From a virus, in the IMG/VR virus record IMGVR_UViG_3300036785_000161, positions 1 through 28,399 of that record: DNA of 28,399 nucleotides, one strand, 5' to 3'. Of this stretch, positions 10,401 to 28,117 are shown piece after piece. The notes under the pieces are model-generated. The model was given only the letters and a program-made list of their open reading frames with translations. It was not told where the DNA came from and did not search any database. Every line of letters starts with the position of its first letter. Position 1 is the stretch's first letter. Both the position numbers and the translations under genes were made by a program.

Positions 10401-10616
10401 GATCAAACGAACATTCGGAACGAAGTTAGTAGGAGAGAACTTGGTCTGATTGGCGAATGCCAGGCCTGATCTCGTCGAGGCCCCACTCCGGAAATCAACA
10501 AGAAAGTTCCGCATCGTCGCGGCACCAGACTTGTATTTTGGAATGTCTGTGCGCGCGAGCAAGCTCGGCGAGAGTTCGCCACTTGAGAATGAATGCTGGA
10601 TAACATTATCGGCCAC
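7446..10616 (-). CDS. gp12-like tail nozzle/stabilisation protein with inserted E1-FCCH-like and FN3-like domains
   Basis: With the GTG at 10616 (MADNVIQHSFSSGELSP) the protein has 1056 residues. The N-terminus (HSFSSGELSPSLLARTDIPKYKSG split by my reading into a start motif and a TMRNF segment near 34-40) is typical of podovirus tail tubular/nozzle proteins. A beta-rich FCCH-like insert lies at about 105-175 and an FN3-like one (SYEVTAVDANGQESGPS) at about 242-318. A conserved core resumes near FFQQRLYFAAS. T7 gp12 is 794 residues, so this version is enlarged by insertions. The start is unsettled: the HNH gene overlaps it by 11 bases and neither the GTG at 10616 nor that at 10640 has a well-spaced ribosome site. 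The C-terminal stop overlaps the gp13-like ATG. Confidence 0.9.
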   Translation of the reverse strand: MADNVIQHSFSSGELSPSLLARTDIPKYKSGAATMRNFLVDFRSGASTRSGLAFANQTKFSPTNFVPNVRLIPFQFSAEIGFVIEFGNFYCRFYINGGSVLEPPFAITGITNANPAVATITGNNFAVGNWIFITGTVGMPQIDNRYYYVSAVAGANVTLQDTITHANINSTGYGVYSSGGTAGRVYEIASPYAASDLALLKFAQLANNMVLVHPLYRPYVLTAYAATNWTLNPIVFGTTISSPTIASATPTAVGTANYSYEVTAVDANGQESGPSAPFAVLNAVNIGTTAGSINVVWSAVAGAISYNVYKAEIGVGNPVPTGSAYGFIQSATGTSLVDSNIVPDFTQSPPIISVPYLTSSVISYTVTAAGTYTTVPGVTVAAPPTGMQATANASLGVLSGSLSNPGTNNVVTTGNDPTGSLLTLANGVTFLITSAGFINAMNGRWAWTVTTATLQSAGSLSGAGTSTPTNPTPAIACNVPGMIDFGGVPPRFTCTWGVTAVIPAQQGSGYPSGSPPAVTFSAGAAAATAVLGGGTGTAQNPLSNGNPGCTTFFQQRLYFAASTNSPTTFWASQPGLYTNFNISDPIIDSDAIQGTLVSTQFNTIKSMLPLPGGLLILTAAGAWQLSSGAGGLASTAAVTPTNATATPQAYNGVSDVPPIVVNYDVLYVQSKGSIVRDLSYNIYANIYTGSDISILSNHLFFGHLIREWAWAEEPFRVVWAVRDDGALLSLTYVKDQEMLGWARHDTQGQFTSVAVIREGINDVAYFAVIRVINGNVVQSVERMVPRYLTYGAEDAFSVDCGFTTAGLLTTSTSSLGATTSSGAVTFICTPPGIFTAGNVGQIFRMNGGIAVINTFTSAIAISGNWIQPIPNPSPGLQVALPGTWSMATPATTYYGLDYLNGATVSILADGQVVPQQTVVNGSITLPFAATKATAGLPFQAQLQTMYLDAGEPTVQGKRKVIPRVTMRARESRGIKMGRTFPTILPVKQFNPTPSGQPITSVPPSPLVSVDVYYVMDPLWETAGQLCVQVDDPVPASVLGVIPEVVIGDTSGGGRGK

Positions 10617-11097
10617 GATTATGAGCTGAAAACTCTCCACGAAGCTTTTTCGATGCTTCTATGTAAGCTTGCTCAGCTTCCTCTCTTGTAGAGAAGAGAC
10701 CCAAATAAACCTGTTTATAACGAATCATTATCTTAGCACGGAACTTATTACAAACTCGATCTACACCACCGCGTTTGATAGCTATTCTATTCCACATATT
10801 CTGAGATTGTGTGGCTTCTCTTAAGTTCTCTAATCTGTTATTATATCCATTTCCATCTTTATGATCTAATTGCTTTGGCAGGGTTCCATATGCACGCAGC
10901 CAGACTACTCTATGAACTAAGAAAGATACACCATCTATCTTAACAAACTTGCGCCAGGGATCGGCAACGCCACCAGCAACCTTTCCTGCAAATCTACTAT
11001 TCCAAGAATTAGTTTTCTCAGGCCTATACTTCCATATAAGCTCTCCAGTAGATGAATTATAATCGAAGAATTTAAGCGCCTGTTCCTGTGTTAACAT
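10606..11097 (-). CDS. HNH endonuclease with AP2 DNA-binding domain (homing-type)
   Basis: A 163-residue protein. The HNH motif is visible as LVHRVVW (His62), LDHKDGNGYNNRLENLR (His79, Asn86/87, Asn91), and a later N-rich segment. Residues about 118-157 match an AP2 domain (KFRAKIMIRYKQVYLGLF, then EEAEQAYIEA). Such HNH_3-AP2 proteins are free-standing homing endonucleases common in phages; they cut DNA at specific sites and spread by repair. The gene is clearly AT-richer than its neighbours (roughly 35% GC in 10681-10860). It sits between two tail genes that are normally adjacent: its ATG is three bases after the gp11-like stop, without a clear ribosome site, and its stop overlaps the next gene. 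A recent insertion is likely. Confidence 0.93.
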   Translation of the reverse strand: MLTQEQALKFFDYNSSTGELIWKYRPEKTNSWNSRFAGKVAGGVADPWRKFVKIDGVSFLVHRVVWLRAYGTLPKQLDHKDGNGYNNRLENLREATQSQNMWNRIAIKRGGVDRVCNKFRAKIMIRYKQVYLGLFSTREEAEQAYIEASKKLRGEFSAHNRGR

Positions 11098-11100
11098 TTG

Positions 11101-11925
11101 TCAGCCATACATCGTCAGCATATTGCCCCAATCGTACGAGATGTTTGGGGACCAGCTCTGGTCTAGTGGATAATCAATCCCTCTGATTCGTATCCAATCA
11201 GGGGTCACGTTGTTAATCGTCAGGCCCTCATTCCCATCAACTGCCCTGGCAGCGATTATCATATTATTCGCCTCTTGCAGTTTCATATTAGCAAGCTGGG
11301 CGTTACCGCTAAGCTGCCATACCATCCGCCCCGCGAGGGCCATCTCCCACGCCGCTCTGAAGTTGTCATCCATCACATCAGGCAGTGTTACACGTTTACA
11401 ATAGAACAGGAGCGCGAACTCTTGGTTTGTGAGAATAACTCGGGTATCTATGCCGACCGGAGGCGGCGCTGGAAGGCCAGAACCGGGGTCAATCTGATCG
11501 ATAGAGACTTGGAACTTGACTGGGGGTCCGTTCCAGAAGGCTGGTGCGCCGCCAGTCACAGCCGTGGTGATCGGAATGCCTGCACCAAAGCCGGTCTGGA
11601 ACTGTGGGACAATATACAGCGGGCGAAGGCAGTCGGATGGGTAGAGGTACTCGTAGGCCCAGGGGGGCGGTGGAATACCCTTAGCCCACTGAGACGTGCC
11701 AGGGTTGGGGTTCTCTGGCGTCCCTGGCGCTGCGCAAGATAGCGTCAAAAGGTTGAAGTTCTTAACGCAGTTCCAGGGAGCCAGCCGAGCCACTTCATCA
11801 CGAACGACATCGATCCAGGTGCTGGCGGCGATTGCCTCGTTAGACTGCTCGGCCAACGAGGCGATTGTGGATCGAGTGCCAATCAGACTCAGTGCCCGAT
11901 TTGCGATGTCCGTATCAGTTGTCAT
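11101..11925 (-). CDS. gp11-like tail tubular (adaptor) protein
   Basis: A 274-residue protein whose N-terminus (MTTDTDIANRALSLIGTRS, then LAEQSNEA and an Arg-rich helix ending in APWNC) is the usual start of the T7 gp11 tail tubular A family. These proteins form the ring joining the portal to the nozzle. The helical C-terminal part (FRAAWEMALAGRMV near 188-201) also fits. T7 gp11 has 196 residues; the extra length is a Pro/Gly-rich middle, about residues 66-165. It lies just before the gp12-like gene apart from the HNH insertion. The ATG is three bases after the previous stop. Confidence 0.88.
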   Translation of the reverse strand: MTTDTDIANRALSLIGTRSTIASLAEQSNEAIAASTWIDVVRDEVARLAPWNCVKNFNLLTLSCAAPGTPENPNPGTSQWAKGIPPPPWAYEYLYPSDCLRPLYIVPQFQTGFGAGIPITTAVTGGAPAFWNGPPVKFQVSIDQIDPGSGLPAPPPVGIDTRVILTNQEFALLFYCKRVTLPDVMDDNFRAAWEMALAGRMVWQLSGNAQLANMKLQEANNMIIAARAVDGNEGLTINNVTPDWIRIRGIDYPLDQSWSPNISYDWGNMLTMYG

Positions 11926-13856: not shown

Positions 13857-15836
13857 TTACTGCGATTGAAACAATACGCCATTAGCGTTGCTAACAAACT
13901 GGTAATAGCCCCCGGCCACAGTTGTGAGATCGCCTCCCGATCTAGTACAAATAGTCCCTATGCCAAGACAACTATTATGAATAACAAGAGAAGAATCCGT
14001 AATTACTGTAATAGTCCTTCCAGAGATTATGCTAGGCAGTTGAAAATTCGCCGTGAAAGCAGCGCCAGAGCCACCACCACCGCCAGAAACGCCAATAGCC
14101 GGAGCCGAAGTGCAACCGCTCCCATTTGTAACCATGCTTATTTGACCAATCGTACCATCTCCAACGCCATTCGCGCCTTCAATCTGAGCGGTGGCGGTTG
14201 GCTCGACCGAGCATCCTCCACCAGTAAAAGTTAGCGTTGGGTTGACAGTGTAACTAGAACCCTTATTGGTAATAAACGACCAAGGCACTTTGCCTATATA
14301 GGACGACTGTTGATTAGTCATTATTGTTGAAACCGCATTGGTGCCAGTTAATTCTATAACAAAAGCGGCGTCTGGAAAAACTACAGCAGATGCAGAAACG
14401 ACTTGAAAAATATCTGTTCCATTAGTATTCCAACGATTTCTACCCCACTGCACCCCCTGAGAGGTAATCCCAAAGGCCTGACCCGTTGGGTTTGGTGACC
14501 CTGTCACGTTGTTACCATCAACCCACACACCCGAGCCACCCCCAGATGTAATGCCAGCACCACAACCATTACATTCAACGATATTATTAACTATTCGTGT
14601 CTCGTTAGTTTGAACGCCAAAGGCAAAACCGCCACCACCGTCATAGGGTGGGCCACCAATGCCCACAGTCGAGGGAGTGCCAAGAATTATAACATTGCCA
14701 GACAGATTTAGCCTAGTTGTTGATCCGGTATTTATTCCAGTCCCATTTGTTACAGCAGTCGCGCCATTCATGGGACCAAGCCAATTGCCGGAGATAGTAC
14801 AGAAAATACAGCCACCCGGATCAATGCCAATCGTGGCGTTGTTGTTGGTGCTGTTCCAGTCAAGAATGTTACGACTAAAGACGCTGTTGATTGAATTAAA
14901 CAGCACAACACCGCTATCAACCATTATATTATCAGCAGCGATGCTATTATTTGCCTGTAATATAAATCCGTAAGGACTCCCCTTACAGTGACGAATAATT
15001 GATCCGGTAACGGTTATGGCGTTAAGTGTAGTTGCTGTCGTTAATTGATTGAAGCTTCCGCCAAGACCTATCCCAACCGTTACACCGCCGCCACAATCAA
15101 CATCAGCGCCCTTAATAATGATATTGCTGATGCCGTTGGTGATCCCCGCGTTGGTTCCTATATTGGAAACCGGAACGTTCCCGGTGCTGCGGACAACAGG
15201 GTGGTCTATTATGACGTTACTTGCTTGATCGAGATAAATTCCGGCCCTGGCATTTCCCGAAAGCACAAGACCTGTAAGACGAGTTTCGGTTTTATTTGCT
15301 GCGTCTAATGTGCTGCTTAAATTTATCCCCTCACTAACCGCATTGTTAGAGGCAACATTCTGAATCAACAAATTGCCGCAGGTGTTTGTGCAATAAATAT
15401 TTGCGGAGGCGTTTAAGTTATTCGCCTTATTACCGTCAACGGTTAGATTTAAAATACTAACACCGGTAGCGTTGACATTTACTACACCGTCAAACGATGA
15501 CGGGTCACTGGGCGGTCTTTGTAAAATACTGGCCGGGCCAGCGCCAATTATAACCAAATTCGCTGGAGGATGAATGCCCGATACAACACAAGTTCCATTT
15601 GGTATCTGAAGAGCAACTCCGGTGGAAGAGGCAATGGACATAGCTGAGTTAAAGGCAGCGGTGTCATTGACACCGTGGCATGATACAGCAGTGAACGCAC
15701 TAGGAATAGGACCAGGGAGTCCTCCTGCTATTGAGCCGCAAATCTGTCCGGCAGAGAAGATACCATTGCACTGTGCCAAAGCCAGCGTGGGCCAAAGGGC
15801 GAAGGAAAGGGTGAGAGCGAGAAGGAGCTTTTTCAT
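13857..15836 (-). CDS. Right-handed beta-helix tailspike/depolymerase-like protein with a Sec-type signal peptide
   Basis: A 659-residue protein from the ATG at 15836, which overlaps the upstream stop (ATGA). Residues 1-21 form a textbook signal peptide (MKKLLLALTLSFALWPTLALA) followed by QCNG. Residues about 55-85 (GVNDTAAFNSAMSIA, then IPNGTCVV) match the opening of pectate-lyase-3-type beta-helices. From about 100 to 480 there are repeated beta-helix rungs rich in Asn, Ile and Gly (NIIIKG, NNIV, DNIMV). The C-terminal part holds Gly-rich GSG-CTSAP repeats (about 524-600). Such folds are typical of tailspikes that bind or cut surface polysaccharide. No catalytic residues can be assigned. 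A signal peptide on a virion spike is odd. The gene is AT-richer than the capsid genes. Confidence 0.87.
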   Translation of the reverse strand: MKKLLLALTLSFALWPTLALAQCNGIFSAGQICGSIAGGLPGPIPSAFTAVSCHGVNDTAAFNSAMSIASSTGVALQIPNGTCVVSGIHPPANLVIIGAGPASILQRPPSDPSSFDGVVNVNATGVSILNLTVDGNKANNLNASANIYCTNTCGNLLIQNVASNNAVSEGINLSSTLDAANKTETRLTGLVLSGNARAGIYLDQASNVIIDHPVVRSTGNVPVSNIGTNAGITNGISNIIIKGADVDCGGGVTVGIGLGGSFNQLTTATTLNAITVTGSIIRHCKGSPYGFILQANNSIAADNIMVDSGVVLFNSINSVFSRNILDWNSTNNNATIGIDPGGCIFCTISGNWLGPMNGATAVTNGTGINTGSTTRLNLSGNVIILGTPSTVGIGGPPYDGGGGFAFGVQTNETRIVNNIVECNGCGAGITSGGGSGVWVDGNNVTGSPNPTGQAFGITSQGVQWGRNRWNTNGTDIFQVVSASAVVFPDAAFVIELTGTNAVSTIMTNQQSSYIGKVPWSFITNKGSSYTVNPTLTFTGGGCSVEPTATAQIEGANGVGDGTIGQISMVTNGSGCTSAPAIGVSGGGGGSGAAFTANFQLPSIISGRTITVITDSSLVIHNSCLGIGTICTRSGGDLTTVAGGYYQFVSNANGVLFQSQ

Positions 15837-16249
15837 GCCTGAATCCACTCAGTCAGATTTTGACGCAAGGCGAGGGCACCAAAGTTAGTTCCGATTTGTG
15901 CGGAAGAGAGACCCATAATAGTCTGACCAGCCGCTGGGTTTATGGTTATAGGATTTGCTTGCGCGAACCCGCCAACATCAACAATAGTCAGTGGACTCTG
16001 CACTGATAGTCCTGGCCTTGATCCGTCTGTTGGGGTGATGATTTTGGGCAGATTGAGCGTAACCGGCCCCGATCCAACCCCAACATTGACAGTCACCAGC
16101 GTTACAGCAGGATCAATGCTATAGGTCCCAGGCGATATAACAAGCAAAACAGCCCCCGGAGTCTCAGCCCATCCGATCGATGGACCGAGATACGTTCGGG
16201 TTAGTTTTCGTACTGTCCCGCCTTGGTCAAGATCGAGTTGGGAGGGCAT
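15833..16249 (-). CDS. Beta-rich fibre/tail-associated protein (138 aa)
   Basis: The ATG at 16249 (MPSQLDLDQGG) gives 138 residues and overlaps the upstream stop by 23 bases; a GGAAAG stretch precedes it. The sequence is rich in alternating hydrophobic residues, with VTVNVGVGSGPVTLNLPK in the middle and PITINPAAGQTIMG near the end. That pattern resembles small beta-structured phage tail or fibre proteins that end in a 'NPxAGdtI' rung. It directly precedes the tailspike gene with an ATGA overlap, so a role at the spike or fibre base is plausible. No enzymatic motif is seen. Confidence 0.78.
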   Translation of the reverse strand: MPSQLDLDQGGTVRKLTRTYLGPSIGWAETPGAVLLVISPGTYSIDPAVTLVTVNVGVGSGPVTLNLPKIITPTDGSRPGLSVQSPLTIVDVGGFAQANPITINPAAGQTIMGLSSAQIGTNFGALALRQNLTEWIQA

Positions 16250-16993: not shown

Positions 16994-18139
16994 TTACACC
17001 AGCGCCACTGATTGTAGCGTCCCTGCGTTGTTGTAGTACATCTTCGTTGTGTTGTTAGTTGTATCTCGAATAAGCACCCATGTGCCCGCTGGAACGTCAG
17101 TGGCCAACGGTGCGCCCGCCTTGGTCTTAGCTTTGATCGTCCCACTTGCATCAGCAAGCGTTCCATTGCCGATGGCGATTGTAGGAACCGAGGAAACTGG
17201 CGGGATCCTTGAGAACGCGGTATCTGCAGCAAGGAGATCGCCTGCACCAGCGCTATTTGAGGCAAATCCAAGAACCGAGTCGCCAGAGACGCGAGTGTTA
17301 AGACTGGTTATGTGAAACTGGGTGTTGTTGGCTATTCTGAATTCCAGCTGTGCTGCATCATTGAACAGCGTAGCTAGTCCGGCATTATTCAAAAAGGCGT
17401 AATTGGTGAATGTTTCAGGGAAATTAAACCAGATTCCGCCAAATAAGGCATTGTTGCCGCCGTTGCCAATGGCTAGGGTTTTTGTTGCCCCGGTGCTGAG
17501 AGTGAAAACTCCTATATTATCGAACAGGGCTGCACTGGACGTATCAACAACAAAATTGATATTGCGCGAAGAACCAGTACCGCCTTTCTGCGTCCCGATA
17601 GTCAGGACGTTGGCAGCCGTGGTAAAATCGAAGATGCCGCGTTCGTAGTTGGGGGGGCTGGTTATAGGAAGACTATAGATATTATAAACGAACAGTCCCG
17701 ATGGAGTGTTGGTTGGATTTGCGCCGATCACAACTGTATTGTTGGCATTGATAACGAGATTTGGCGCGCCATTATTAATCCCGAAGCCAAAGGGATCATT
17801 TGTTAGAGTCTCGAAAAGAACGCCTCCAACCCCAGTAGCAAAAGAGTTTGCGCCGACATAAATGCCAAATTGGCGCGTGCCATCAGTAATGTTGACCAAA
17901 TCAGTATCGTGGAGCCCTTTTATCGCAAGTGCAACATTACCGTTCGGATCGGTGTGACCAGCCCCACCAACAGCCAAAAGCTGATTGGTATAATCAAACG
18001 TCAGCCCGGCACTCTCGCCAACAGTCGTGCCTTGCTGAAACAAGACGCGAGTGTCGACGCCGCCAGTGATCGGCGTGGTGCCGATTGCTATTGTGCCACC
18101 ACCGCCACCACCAGCGCCTGCTATGTTTATATTGCTCAT
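16994..18139 (-). CDS. Tail-fibre-like beta-rich protein (381 aa)
   Basis: The ATG at 18139 overlaps the upstream stop (ATGA) and gives 381 residues starting MSNINIAGAGGGGGG. The segment TTPITGGVDTRVLFQQG (about 21-37) is a pattern common near the N-terminus of phage fibre proteins. The body is a long series of short beta-like segments rich in Asn, Gly and Thr. The C-terminus has the PAGTWVLIRDTTNNTTK pattern (about 354-370) seen in fibre knobs. It is probably a trimeric fibre or spike-associated protein for host binding. GC is lower than in the capsid genes, as often with exchanged receptor-binding genes. The exact role is inferred. Confidence 0.82.
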   Translation of the reverse strand: MSNINIAGAGGGGGGTIAIGTTPITGGVDTRVLFQQGTTVGESAGLTFDYTNQLLAVGGAGHTDPNGNVALAIKGLHDTDLVNITDGTRQFGIYVGANSFATGVGGVLFETLTNDPFGFGINNGAPNLVINANNTVVIGANPTNTPSGLFVYNIYSLPITSPPNYERGIFDFTTAANVLTIGTQKGGTGSSRNINFVVDTSSAALFDNIGVFTLSTGATKTLAIGNGGNNALFGGIWFNFPETFTNYAFLNNAGLATLFNDAAQLEFRIANNTQFHITSLNTRVSGDSVLGFASNSAGAGDLLAADTAFSRIPPVSSVPTIAIGNGTLADASGTIKAKTKAGAPLATDVPAGTWVLIRDTTNNTTKMYYNNAGTLQSVALV

Positions 18140-18465
18140 AGCACCAGCGCATACCAAATCGTTCCGCCTACCTGCACAGCGGCGGAGGAGTTAATGATAA
18201 AAGAGTCTCCCACATTGCAGGTTAGTGGAAGTTGGATGAAGTCTTGAACTTGCGCCGCGTTAGAGCCAAAATCCAATGGCCCACTGATCGGCGTTGAGCC
18301 AGACTTGAAGGTAAGGTTGGTCGCTGCTGCGACAACGTAGAAGAACTGTAGAACTTTAATCATCTTTCCCACAGCGCCAATAATCACCGTATTGTCGCCA
18401 GAGGCAGCGAAGTTAATTGGGGCCTGTTGGACGAGTGGGCCGATTGTTGCGTCGAGGGTGGTCAT
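18136..18465 (-). CDS. Small beta-sandwich-like phage structural protein
   Basis: A 109-residue protein. The pattern INFAASGDNTVIIGAVGKMI followed by KVLQFFYVVAAATNLTFKSG and ending SSAAVQVGGTIWYALV recurs in small phage proteins near fibre or capsid genes, as far as I can recall, and is predicted to be all beta. It may decorate the virion or link fibres. It is coupled to both neighbours by ATGA overlaps at each end, so the start is well supported. No enzyme motif or signal peptide. Confidence 0.8.
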   Translation of the reverse strand: MTTLDATIGPLVQQAPINFAASGDNTVIIGAVGKMIKVLQFFYVVAAATNLTFKSGSTPISGPLDFGSNAAQVQDFIQLPLTCNVGDSFIINSSAAVQVGGTIWYALVL

Positions 18466-19018: not shown

Positions 19019-19453
19019 CTAGAATTGACTGTAGTAGACCACGGCCGCGATCGTTGCCACAGAAGGGGTTATGCAGAGCGCTTGAGCTACTCCCGCTACC
19101 ATCGGTACGGTAAAGAAAGCATAGTCGATATGGTCGGTAGCGGGAGCAGTACTGGTTACGTTCTGTGGTGGAATAAACAGCACTGTGCCTGTACCACAGT
19201 TCGATCCGGTGCCATAGGATAAGGAAAAGGTTCCAGTGGCACCAGTATTGGTTACGTGCCATCCACAGATTGAGATAGTCTGACCAGTAACTGCCGGTAC
19301 AATTTGGGTTATGGTGGAGGGACCAACAGCAAGCGTAGCGAGCCTTGGACACAAGATCGCGTTGCCTGGACCAACGATGGTCCCTTGGGAGAAGGCGCTT
19401 GGGCCTACTATAAGGCACAGCCCAAGCGCAAGAAGTGCGAGGAGCTTTCTCAC
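19019..19453 (-). CDS. Small secreted or envelope-targeted protein with signal peptide (144 aa)
   Basis: The GTG at 19453 overlaps the upstream stop (GTGA) and gives MRKLLALLALGLCLIVGPSA, a clean Sec-type signal peptide with predicted cleavage near residue 22; a TTG 15 bases upstream is a weaker start. The mature part is beta-rich, Thr/Gly/Ala-rich, with four Cys (CPRL, ICGW, NCGT, LCIT), consistent with disulfide bonds outside the cytoplasm. No known domain. It is paired with a second signal-peptide gene just upstream in the operon, between cement protein and fibre genes. Why an exported protein is encoded here is unclear. Confidence 0.82.
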   Translation of the reverse strand: MRKLLALLALGLCLIVGPSAFSQGTIVGPGNAILCPRLATLAVGPSTITQIVPAVTGQTISICGWHVTNTGATGTFSLSYGTGSNCGTGTVLFIPPQNVTSTAPATDHIDYAFFTVPMVAGVAQALCITPSVATIAAVVYYSQF

Positions 19454-19944
19454 TGGACCTGACTCCAAGTGGTGTTAGAGGCAGTGTAGATCAGCTTTAC
19501 GCAAGTCCGCGCAGCCAGTGTGGTTAGAGTGGTGGTTGCGCCAGTAGCAAAGACCTGCGGAGCCGTCGCGGTGATCGTCACGACTTGAGTAGCGAAGGCG
19601 CCGTTGGAGGTGTTACAGAACGAGACAATCGCACCATCAACTGGAGTCAGTGGCATGTTGAACACCACGCCAGAGGTTGATTGGACTGGCATGATGACTG
19701 CGTTCTGCGTTACCGCTAACTGTACGGTGCCGGTGGTGGCGGCAGCGTTAGAGAGGTAGCCCCACGAGCTACGGGTTTGGTAGGCACAGATAAAGCCGGT
19801 GGATGGGCCACCAGGGCCTTGACCTGAGTTCCAGCACTCATTGCCGGATAGGGCGTTCTGAACTATTGGCTGTGCGACGAGCCAAGTGGTGGCAAGGGCA
19901 GCGAGTGCTGCCCCCACCAATCCCGCTAGAAGGACCCGACGCAT
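19450..19944 (-). CDS. Secreted or membrane-anchored beta-rich protein with signal peptide (164 aa)
   Basis: A 164-residue protein. Residues about 4-24 (VLLAGLVGAALAALATTWLV) form a signal peptide or N-terminal anchor after MRR. Then comes the motif GNECWNSGQGPGGPS (about 34-48) and a beta-rich body. The GNExWxxGQGPGGPS pattern recurs, as far as I remember, in small proteins near capsid genes of environmental phages. The second half (FATQVVTITATAPQVF, then RTCVKLIYTASNTTW) resembles a small beta-sandwich found in fibre proteins. The ATG overlaps the cement gene stop (TAATG). Function is unknown; a head or tail surface protein or an exported factor are both possible. Confidence 0.82.
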   Translation of the reverse strand: MRRVLLAGLVGAALAALATTWLVAQPIVQNALSGNECWNSGQGPGGPSTGFICAYQTRSSWGYLSNAAATTGTVQLAVTQNAVIMPVQSTSGVVFNMPLTPVDGAIVSFCNTSNGAFATQVVTITATAPQVFATGATTTLTTLAARTCVKLIYTASNTTWSQVQ

Positions 19945-20522
19945 TAGTTGTTCACGACTACGCCAGGAGGATACGCGCCGATGAACTGATCATGGAGCGA
20001 GCCCTGGAACATTTGGTCGAAGCGATCGAGGACAATCGTGCCAAGCAGCCAGGAACTGTTGGTGACTGCACCACCGTTAGTAAACGTACCAGCGACGGTG
20101 TACGCGAGGCGAAGGAACCGCGGAACAGGCGAGCCGGGTGGAGGCCTTGGCAAGTCCATATCAAACATGCGCACGCCTTGGAGAAGGCTCGCGAGAAGTA
20201 CTACTGGAGAGGTCCACCAAGTTGTGTAAGCACCTGGAGCACCCGAGCCGTTATCGGGAGCGCCCTGAAGGCCTACTGACAAGCTGGTCCCACCAGCGAA
20301 GGTGGAGCAGCATTGGATCAGCATCTTCAGTGCAGGATCGTCACCGATGCCCATATCGCGAGCGCCTTGGCCAGAGGCCAGCACAGGGACGCCTGGAGGG
20401 GCGGCGATGTGCAGGTCGATGACGTTCGTGCTGTTGCCGGTTGTGGTGATGAGGTCAACGAACGCCGGAGTAGCGCCTCCGGTGACGTTGCCGGTGAAGA
20501 GAAGTTGTCCATCCAGAATCAT
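19944..20522 (-). CDS. Bbp16-family capsid cement protein
   Basis: A 192-residue protein directly after the major capsid gene. The pattern VIDLHIA, then RDMGIGDDPALKMLIQC, SLSVGLQGAPD and RFLRLAYTVAGTFTNGGAVT matches the Bbp16 cement family of BPP-1-like phages: an early 'STNVIDL', a 'GxGxxLxxxxxV' strand and a late 'RxLRLxYTVxGTFTxGxVT'. Such proteins sit on the outside of the shell and stabilise it. AAGGAG lies seven bases before the ATG. It ends in a TAATG overlap with the next gene. Assignment is by motif pattern from memory. Confidence 0.88.
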   Translation of the reverse strand: MILDGQLLFTGNVTGGATPAFVDLITTTGNSTNVIDLHIAAPPGVPVLASGQGARDMGIGDDPALKMLIQCCSTFAGGTSLSVGLQGAPDNGSGAPGAYTTWWTSPVVLLASLLQGVRMFDMDLPRPPPGSPVPRFLRLAYTVAGTFTNGGAVTNSSWLLGTIVLDRFDQMFQGSLHDQFIGAYPPGVVVNN

Positions 20523-20532
20523 GGTTGGCTCC

Positions 20533-21576
20533 TTACGTTACTTGAGCTTCGTTATTCAGAAGAGCGTCACACGTCCGAACCGGGAGGCCTCGGAACGTGG
20601 TAACAGGCTTACCTTCGAACTCCTCAATCCGGAGCAGGACGTTCGTCTTGTTCATGGCTTGGAGGTCGAGGTAGGTACGGATGACACGATTGCAGTAGAT
20701 AACCGCGCGTCCCATATCGGCCCGGACCTCGGGAGTATCAGAGGTCTGGATAGTCGTGGCAGATGCCGGGGCAGTTGGCAACCTATACAACGCTCGAATG
20801 ATGAGGTTGATAAGGTTCGCTGCGCTGACGCCAGTGAGCTGCGTAACGTCTACGTTAGCTACGCGAGTCCAATAGCGCCAATCCCTCAGCACCAAACCGA
20901 TCTCCCACTTGAAGTGATCGCGGTAGGCCTGGTACGTGTTGCCGGACAGGTCCTGAACCGGCCACTCGCCCATATCCCGGTGCTGGAGGCCTGTGATCTT
21001 GCCTTTGGGGAAGGTGGCATGGCAAGTGTCACTGCCCCACACACCGATCCAGATCGAGGTGTTGGTGTTCGAGGTCCCACCACCGTCCAGTACGTTCGCT
21101 GCGGTCTGGGCATTCGCTGTAGTCTTTGTAGAGTACCGCGGCGAGAACCCAGTGAACCGCTCTGGGTTGGTGGACTGGTTGCCGTAGAAGATGGTTGTAG
21201 CCACTTGCTGGGACATGCCCTCTAAGAAGGCTTTCACTTCAGAAAGCCTGAACTCAGCGGTGTTGCCGTTGAGGTCAGCGATGTCCTTATCGATAACCGC
21301 GTAGGTTTCCAGATTCCCCACCGTGTCTACGATTTGCGCGGTGGTTGACTTGGCATTTGGCACGCCCTGGTTTAACAAGCGCCAAGTGGCCTGTGGGATG
21401 CCGGTTCGAACAGTGGTTTTGTGGCCGGTGGGCAAGTTACCCTCCAACACCAACATATCTTCGAGGATTTCGTTGGTTTGCGAGAGCAGCTCAATGATAG
21501 TGGCGACCCTGTATCCGTCGTCCATTCTCTTGGCCCAGTCGGCGTAGGTAAGTGCAATCGTACCTACGGTAGCCAT
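20533..21576 (-). CDS. Major capsid protein, GP7 / BPP-1 type (HK97-like fold)
   Basis: A 347-residue protein. The sequence IIELLSQTNEILEDMLVLEG and NLPTGHKTTVRTGIPQATWR (about residues 27-67) is the hallmark of GP7-type major capsid proteins of epsilon15 and BPP-1 relatives, followed by DKDIADLNGNTAEFRLSE and FYGNQSTNPERFTGFSPRYS. The C-terminal part ends in a TFRGLPVRTCDALL strand typical of this fold. It would form the icosahedral shell around the scaffold. An optimal AAAGGAG site stands six bases before the ATG, as expected for the most abundant protein. It follows the scaffold and precedes the cement gene. Length is normal for the family and no slippery site for a longer form is seen. 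Confidence 0.95.
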   Translation of the reverse strand: MATVGTIALTYADWAKRMDDGYRVATIIELLSQTNEILEDMLVLEGNLPTGHKTTVRTGIPQATWRLLNQGVPNAKSTTAQIVDTVGNLETYAVIDKDIADLNGNTAEFRLSEVKAFLEGMSQQVATTIFYGNQSTNPERFTGFSPRYSTKTTANAQTAANVLDGGGTSNTNTSIWIGVWGSDTCHATFPKGKITGLQHRDMGEWPVQDLSGNTYQAYRDHFKWEIGLVLRDWRYWTRVANVDVTQLTGVSAANLINLIIRALYRLPTAPASATTIQTSDTPEVRADMGRAVIYCNRVIRTYLDLQAMNKTNVLLRIEEFEGKPVTTFRGLPVRTCDALLNNEAQVT

Positions 21577-27490: not shown

Positions 27491-28117
27491 TTATTCTCGT
27501 CTCCAGATAACCTGTGCGTCTTGGCGATCGATGTAGGGTGCGCTGCGCGCTAAGTGACGCTCTAGCAGCCACCGGCGTGCTGGGTCAGCGACTGCGCCTA
27601 CGGCGAATACTGCATCGCGCTGGTACAGCGGGTCAGTGTCAGCCGCGCCATGCGGATTGGGCCGCTCGACGAAGGTTGTGTAATGGGCTGGCGGGCCTTC
27701 CGGCTGGTAGCTGCCTAATCCAAAGGTTCCCGAACTCCAAGTATCCTGGAAGTAGCGCATGTTTGGAGTTGTAGGATAACGACCACACCAAACAGATGGT
27801 TGTAGGGCAATAACATGCGCGGTGCGGTGGAGGGCTCCACCAACTGCCAAGGCAGAATTGCCGCCGCAACTGTACCCGACGAAGGCAACTGAGTGTTCAT
27901 GATTTGCTGCTGTTGCTTCATCGTAAGCCCTCTGCGTTTCTCTGTAGTCGTAAACATGGACGCTGTTAACACCGCGCAGCGTGCGGACGCGGCGGGCGAT
28001 CTGATCAATACCGCTCGACCAGCCGTTCGGTCCCCATCCGTAGAACAGCCAAACATCGGTGGCGGCCTGGGCTGGCAACGTCAATGAGAGGAGAACGGTC
28101 GCCGCCGCGAGCTTCAT
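27491..28117 (-). CDS. Secreted alpha/beta-hydrolase-like protein
   Basis: A 208-residue protein with a signal peptide at 1-19 (MKLAAATVLLSLTLPAQAA). The motif GYSCGG at 81-86 is a GxSxG nucleophile elbow with Ser83, preceded by the hydrophobic strand SVAFV; an early strand VWLFYGWGPNGWSSG (22-36) could supply the oxyanion loop. His145 or His156 and an Asp such as Asp125 may complete the triad, but this cannot be settled by eye. Such enzymes hydrolyse esters, lipids or peptides. Its ATG overlaps the stop of a small two-helix membrane gene (ATGA). The signal peptide places it in the periplasm or outside, so a part in envelope breakdown at lysis is possible. Similar proteins are, from memory, known in phages of alpha-proteobacteria. 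Confidence 0.83.
   Translation of the reverse strand: MKLAAATVLLSLTLPAQAATDVWLFYGWGPNGWSSGIDQIARRVRTLRGVNSVHVYDYRETQRAYDEATAANHEHSVAFVGYSCGGNSALAVGGALHRTAHVIALQPSVWCGRYPTTPNMRYFQDTWSSGTFGLGSYQPEGPPAHYTTFVERPNPHGAADTDPLYQRDAVFAVGAVADPARRWLLERHLARSAPYIDRQDAQVIWRRE

Follow-up and report, generated by a model that had tools for sequence, protein, structure and literature searches.

A spike body gene with a Sec leader beside a separate anchor gene: a possible split tailspike in an epsilon15/BPP-1-like podophage

A spike body encoded in a fragment of a podophage genome is very probably exported by way of its Sec leader and matured by disulfide bonding, as the sequences of the gene and its relatives indicate. 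Its gene directly follows a small leaderless anchor gene. The two products may form a split tailspike, in which the body would be exported, disulfide-matured and then docked on the virion anchor at lysis, a reading to which we give about half of our confidence.

The phage fragment and its spike body gene

The window, meaning the whole stretch of DNA analysed (28,399 nucleotides, IMG/VR record IMGVR_UViG_3300036785_000161), is a fragment of an epsilon15/BPP-1-like podophage in which terminase, portal, capsid and tail genes follow one another as in that group. Its likeness to epsilon15, phiV10 and BPP-1 (Uetakevirus, Rauchvirus) lies in the capsid gene, the late gene order and a homologue of Bbp14. 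The genes considered here belong to a block with the following surroundings:

20533–21576, minus strand: major capsid protein, with up to 54% identity to epsilon15/phiV10/BPP-1-like phages
19944–20522, minus strand: cement-protein position, upstream border of the block, weakly similar to BPP-1 Bbp16
11101–11925, minus strand: tail tubular protein A-like, downstream border of the block, homologue of BPP-1 Bbp14

In epsilon15, phiV10, BPP-1 and other named relatives, the space between capsid/cement and tail tube holds one to three small leaderless genes, whereas in the window it spans 8 kb and contains three leader-bearing genes. In epsilon15, phiV10 and BPP-1 the fibre genes follow those for the ejection proteins, and none of the cement-to-tail genes received a leader call; among the other relatives compared, the exception is the metagenome-assembled vir555, where one small gene (L091 16756) received a leader-like call. 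Limnohabitans phage DC33 (PQ492659.1, L087) is labelled Inoviridae, yet it has a BPP-1-like tailed-phage capsid and tail genes, and its label looks like wrong taxonomy. The major capsid protein of the window matched Telmatospirillum, Reyranella and acetic acid bacteria, which offers only a hint at Alphaproteobacteria as the host group; the anchor domain, sought in about 790 alphaproteobacterial genomes in a search without a positive control, was found in none. An HNH-endonuclease-like ORF occupies positions 10606–11097 (minus strand) of the window, between two tail-tube genes.

The first-pass annotation had described an open reading frame at 13857–15836 as a beta-helix tailspike with a Sec-type signal followed by Q. 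The frame exists with that N-terminus, and its strand can now be added:

13857–15836, minus strand: spike body gene, 659 aa, Sec/SPI leader, 16 Cys in the mature part, ATG at 15836
15774–15836, minus strand: leader peptide, residues 1–21, MKKLLLALTLSFALWPTLALA, predicted SPase I cleavage between A21 and Q22
15732–15773, minus strand: conserved mature N-terminus QCNGIFSAGQICGS, candidate docking element, consensus QC[NT]GxF..xTxCGNxTG
15833–15836, minus strand: ATGA shared by the stop codon of the anchor gene and the start codon of the body gene (translational coupling), recurring across relatives

The gene product thus starts with MKKLLLALTLSFALWPTLALA, passes the cleavage point and continues as QCNGIFSAGQICGS. 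Signals were called with a rule-based Sec/SPI scheme of our own, which considers the n-, h- and c-regions together with the -3/-1 rule and uses a hand-set threshold; it recovered 5/6 E. coli exported proteins and made calls on 1.2% of shuffled N-termini. The body N-terminus has a positive n-region, a hydrophobic core and small residues at -3/-1, and it scored 3.79 with cleavage between A21 and Q22. This score, and the retention of the leader across relatives, establish that the signal reported in the first pass is real. The SPII lipobox [LVI][ASTVI][GAS]C is absent, the sequence at that place being LAQC, and because the residue preceding Cys is Q, the body is not a lipoprotein.

The term beta-helix is supported for relatives at the same locus, which match the families PF12708, NosD and PF13229 (the last in the fused locus L192), but the window body itself had no match in the Pfam search. 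Its single-sequence AF2 model was poor (pLDDT 40) and was left out of the fold search. Compared as a whole with named phages and IMG/VR records, the body matched nothing at a useful score, so that its homology is unusable. Split bodies share the conserved mature N-terminus, after which the remainder is hypervariable and too different to align.

The start codon of the body is secure, because its ATG overlaps the TGA of the preceding gene. The same 4-base overlap is present in the window, in 30/34 relatives found by the body N-terminus and in almost all split loci of the anchor-based search. No better-supported start downstream of the leader, the alternative raised in the first pass, was seen. 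Pairs of leaders differ on average at 23 of 54 bases, and the signal is kept in all of them; in simulated random drift of equal size it was kept in 2.9% of simulations. Judged from the simulations, the leader is under selection. Because the search pattern for the body N-terminus included AQCNG, leader frequency can be fairly judged from the anchor-based search alone.

The anchor gene in split and fused loci

The first pass had overlooked the gene directly before the body, as well as two other leader genes of the block and the cysteine pattern described below:

15833–16249, minus strand: anchor gene, 138 aa (MPSQLDLDQGG..), leaderless, directly before the body, XD1/gp9-like AF2 model, cis-fused to spike/fibre bodies in relatives

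The anchor domain alone served as the query against IMG/VR, and the resulting counts of split and fused loci are for this reason unbiased towards leaders. It formed a separate short gene in 55 loci, and in 50 of them the next gene encoded a leader and body; the remaining five comprise three contig ends (L161, L185, L205), one insertion of an HNH-type ORF (L172) and one atypical locus (L210). Anchor and body were fused in a single chain in six loci (four distinct), all six leaderless; among these, Pfam assigns the L192 body to a beta-helix family, and L193 has a match to a tail-fibre PHROG. With 50/55 split loci bearing a leader and 6/6 fused loci lacking one, the leader goes with a body made as a separate chain. 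The HNH-type ORF of L172, also found in L142 (IMGVR_UViG_3300047494_000218), lies exactly between anchor and body and has a 4-base overlap with the anchor stop, as if a mobile endonuclease had taken over the coupling site.

The AF2 model of the anchor, built from 43 sequences (pLDDT 83), matched CBA120 TSP4 XD1 (Z 12.7), T4 gp10 (10.8) and T4 gp9 (9.5). PF07880 reached 22.6 bits on the window anchor, under the curated cut-off of 25, and gave weak matches in 3/10 members of the family. According to the model, the anchor shares the fold of T4 gp9 and TSP4 XD1. The XD1/gp9 fold is also present in the secreted proteins CpaA and StcE, and the fold alone is consequently no proof of a virion role. 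On the tail, TSP4 and gp10 act as hubs to which separate spike or fibre proteins are attached, and XD1 is presumed to be a spacer and not a docking site (PMC8825819); the TSP4 docking domains XD2 and XD3 gave no match in the structural search with the anchor. Divergence of the anchor correlated with that of the mature N-terminus at r 0.40, against 0.22 for the leader lying between them and 0.27 for the rest of the body, values that are modest and confounded by linkage.

Leaders and cysteine parity across the block

Two further genes of the block carry leaders:

19450–19944, minus strand: protein with a leader, second in the block; 4 Cys in the mature part; leaders in most members of its family
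19019–19453, minus strand: protein with a leader, third in the block; 4 Cys in the mature part; GTG start overlapping the previous stop

Leaderless and leader-bearing homologues were compared for cysteines in the family of 19450–19944 only, in an analysis re-done after wrong starts from the gene caller: complete leader-bearing members have 0, 2 or 4 Cys, and three leaderless members have 0 or 1. The two matches to this family in L027 and L036, which map upstream of the capsid gene, appear to represent other proteins. The idea that 19019–19453 is a leader version of the leaderless 18136–18465 was dropped, as BLAST found no similarity between them.

In 80 close capsid relatives from soil metagenomes, leaders were called in 125/418 distinct block genes versus 13/329 upstream genes and 0/37 tail genes; genes were simple longest-ORF calls, and since some starts were set too far upstream, 125/418 is an underestimate. 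Loci with the whole block have, according to the caller, from one to about six leader-bearing genes each. By these predictions, the leader is a lineage-wide trait of the soil relatives and no quirk of one spike. A fourth leader-bearing ORF of the window, at 27491–28117 (minus strand) upstream of the terminase, contains a GYSCG (GxSxG) motif and had no match in Pfam, PHROG or NCBIfam; from its motif and leader it looks like an exported esterase/lipase-type hydrolase. In Xanthomonas phage PBR31, gp40 has been described as a leader-bearing esterase near the lysis genes.

An oxidised mature protein is expected to have its cysteines in pairs, which is the rationale for a parity test. Of 159 distinct leader proteins, 151 have at least one Cys in the mature part, and 142 of these have an even number. 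The even:odd ratios of the controls were 72:86 for leaderless block genes (72/158 even), 55:66 for upstream genes and 12:15 for tail genes. Counted by cluster majority the leader proteins gave 50:7, and by coarse clusters 21:3; because they are related, a nominal p-value for parity is not trustworthy. The leaders themselves hold 41 Cys, and including these weakens the parity to 109:42, which places the start of the paired region at about the predicted cleavage. Cysteine content is 2.05% in split bodies, 0.82% in fused bodies and 0.10% in anchors. These cysteine patterns argue strongly, at the sequence level, for a functional leader and for disulfides in the mature part. An ejection-type protein of 2052 aa in the G001 genome (L211–L212; G001 22859–29017) has zero Cys, as against the Cys-rich leader proteins.

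Possible roles of the exported body and comparison with known systems

Tailed-phage virions are taken to assemble wholly in the cytoplasm, a reducing compartment, and tailspikes normally assemble there as well. To our knowledge, a cleaved Sec leader has not been described on any virion protein of a tailed phage, and the open-licence papers searched contained no report of an exported one. In a split tailspike, the leaderless anchor (15833–16249) would stay in the cytoplasm and presumably join the virion, while the body (13857–15836) would be translated from the overlapping start codon and exported by Sec. Signal peptidase I would cut it after A21, and in the periplasm disulfide bonds would form. 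Once the cell lyses, the mature body would meet the virions and dock on the anchor through its QC[NT]GxF...CGNxTG N-terminus, a step that seems likely, at a probability near even. The leader, selection on it, the coupling, the split/fused dichotomy and the cysteine pairing are supported by sequence; what we infer is the periplasmic location, the cleavage, docking after lysis and an enzymatic or receptor role. The body is probably the part of the spike that touches the host cell. Against this reading, lysis would be the first moment at which anchor and body share a compartment, XD1 is described as a spacer, and the fused set is small (four distinct loci).

The first pass had left three options for the signal: a free exported factor, some other use in the virion, or a protein foreign to it. 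Export is supported. A virion protein for which export is part of maturation is favoured over a free factor, because the anchor is cis-fused to leaderless spike/fibre bodies elsewhere, the genes are coupled by their overlap, and outside the block G001 (about 48 kb like its relatives, and taken as complete) lacks any gene for a tail fibre or spike. The main rival, of lower probability, is that the body is released as a non-virion depolymerase, decoy or exclusion factor and that the anchor is a small virion protein that lost its spike. The leader-bearing phage proteins known to us are non-virion proteins, there is a documented case of a free endolysin that bears a Sec leader, the other leader genes of the block and the hydrolase at 27491–28117 could form an exported set, and in fused phages, L016/G004 among them, leaderless spikes occur together with leader proteins. 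The coupling overlap, the fusion partners, the missing further spike gene in G001 and a conserved mature N-terminus followed by a hypervariable remainder all speak against such release.

Two further readings concern the leader itself. Paired cysteines indicate only an oxidising compartment, and a leader held in the membrane would likewise exclude its own Cys from pairing; the body could thus remain uncleaved in the inner membrane, facing the periplasm, and be freed at lysis for a virion or lysis role, with SAR endolysins as the precedent. The A/Q cleavage site with its small residues is, however, well conserved across split bodies, and we regard this course as improbable. That the leader is a chance resemblance or a hydrophobic helix for virion assembly, on a normal spike that stays cytoplasmic, agrees with the norm for tailspikes, but it conflicts with the drift simulation, the 50/55 association with the split state and the cysteine parity, and is very improbable.

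Returning to the split tailspike, its counterpart for the whole clade, held a little short of even confidence, is that several appendage proteins are Sec-exported, acquire disulfide bonds in the periplasm and join the particle while the cell lyses or afterwards, the spike consisting of a cytoplasmic anchor and an exported body. The open-licence papers searched describe no tailed phage in which a spike part is exported and disulfide-bonded before it joins the virus. A lineage with hundreds of soil-metagenome relatives appears to export several proteins of its appendage module and to use disulfides in them. If these belong to the virion, its assembly would be completed outside the cytoplasm, disulfide stability could suit the spikes to life in soil, and spikes could be swapped easily, the anchor and the body being encoded by separate genes; as free proteins, they would make up a diverse set secreted by the phages during infection. 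In either case, cysteine parity offers a test for export of phage proteins that needs nothing but sequence.

Several known systems share parts of this arrangement. The branched tailspikes of CBA120/Kuttervirus and T4 gp9/gp10 have the XD1/gp9 fold of the anchor model, and in these systems, too, separate spike proteins are assembled on a gp10-like hub; export of CBA120 spikes has not been reported, and the window anchor resembles XD1, the presumed spacer, with XD2/XD3 not seen. Secreted and SAR endolysins (Lys44 of fOg44, P1 Lyz) are likewise phage proteins with N-terminal Sec export signals, but they are lysis enzymes, usually one per phage, whereas the window lineage has several such proteins in a virion gene block. 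Among isolated phages, BcepC6B gp19 (L086 20959–22032) and Xanthomonas phage PBR31 orf035 (L119 2932–3741) are annotated as tail fibre or structural proteins and have a Sec-like leader that had gone unnoticed, with 4 and 2 mature Cys, respectively, both even. They differ from the window spike in gene position and in body.
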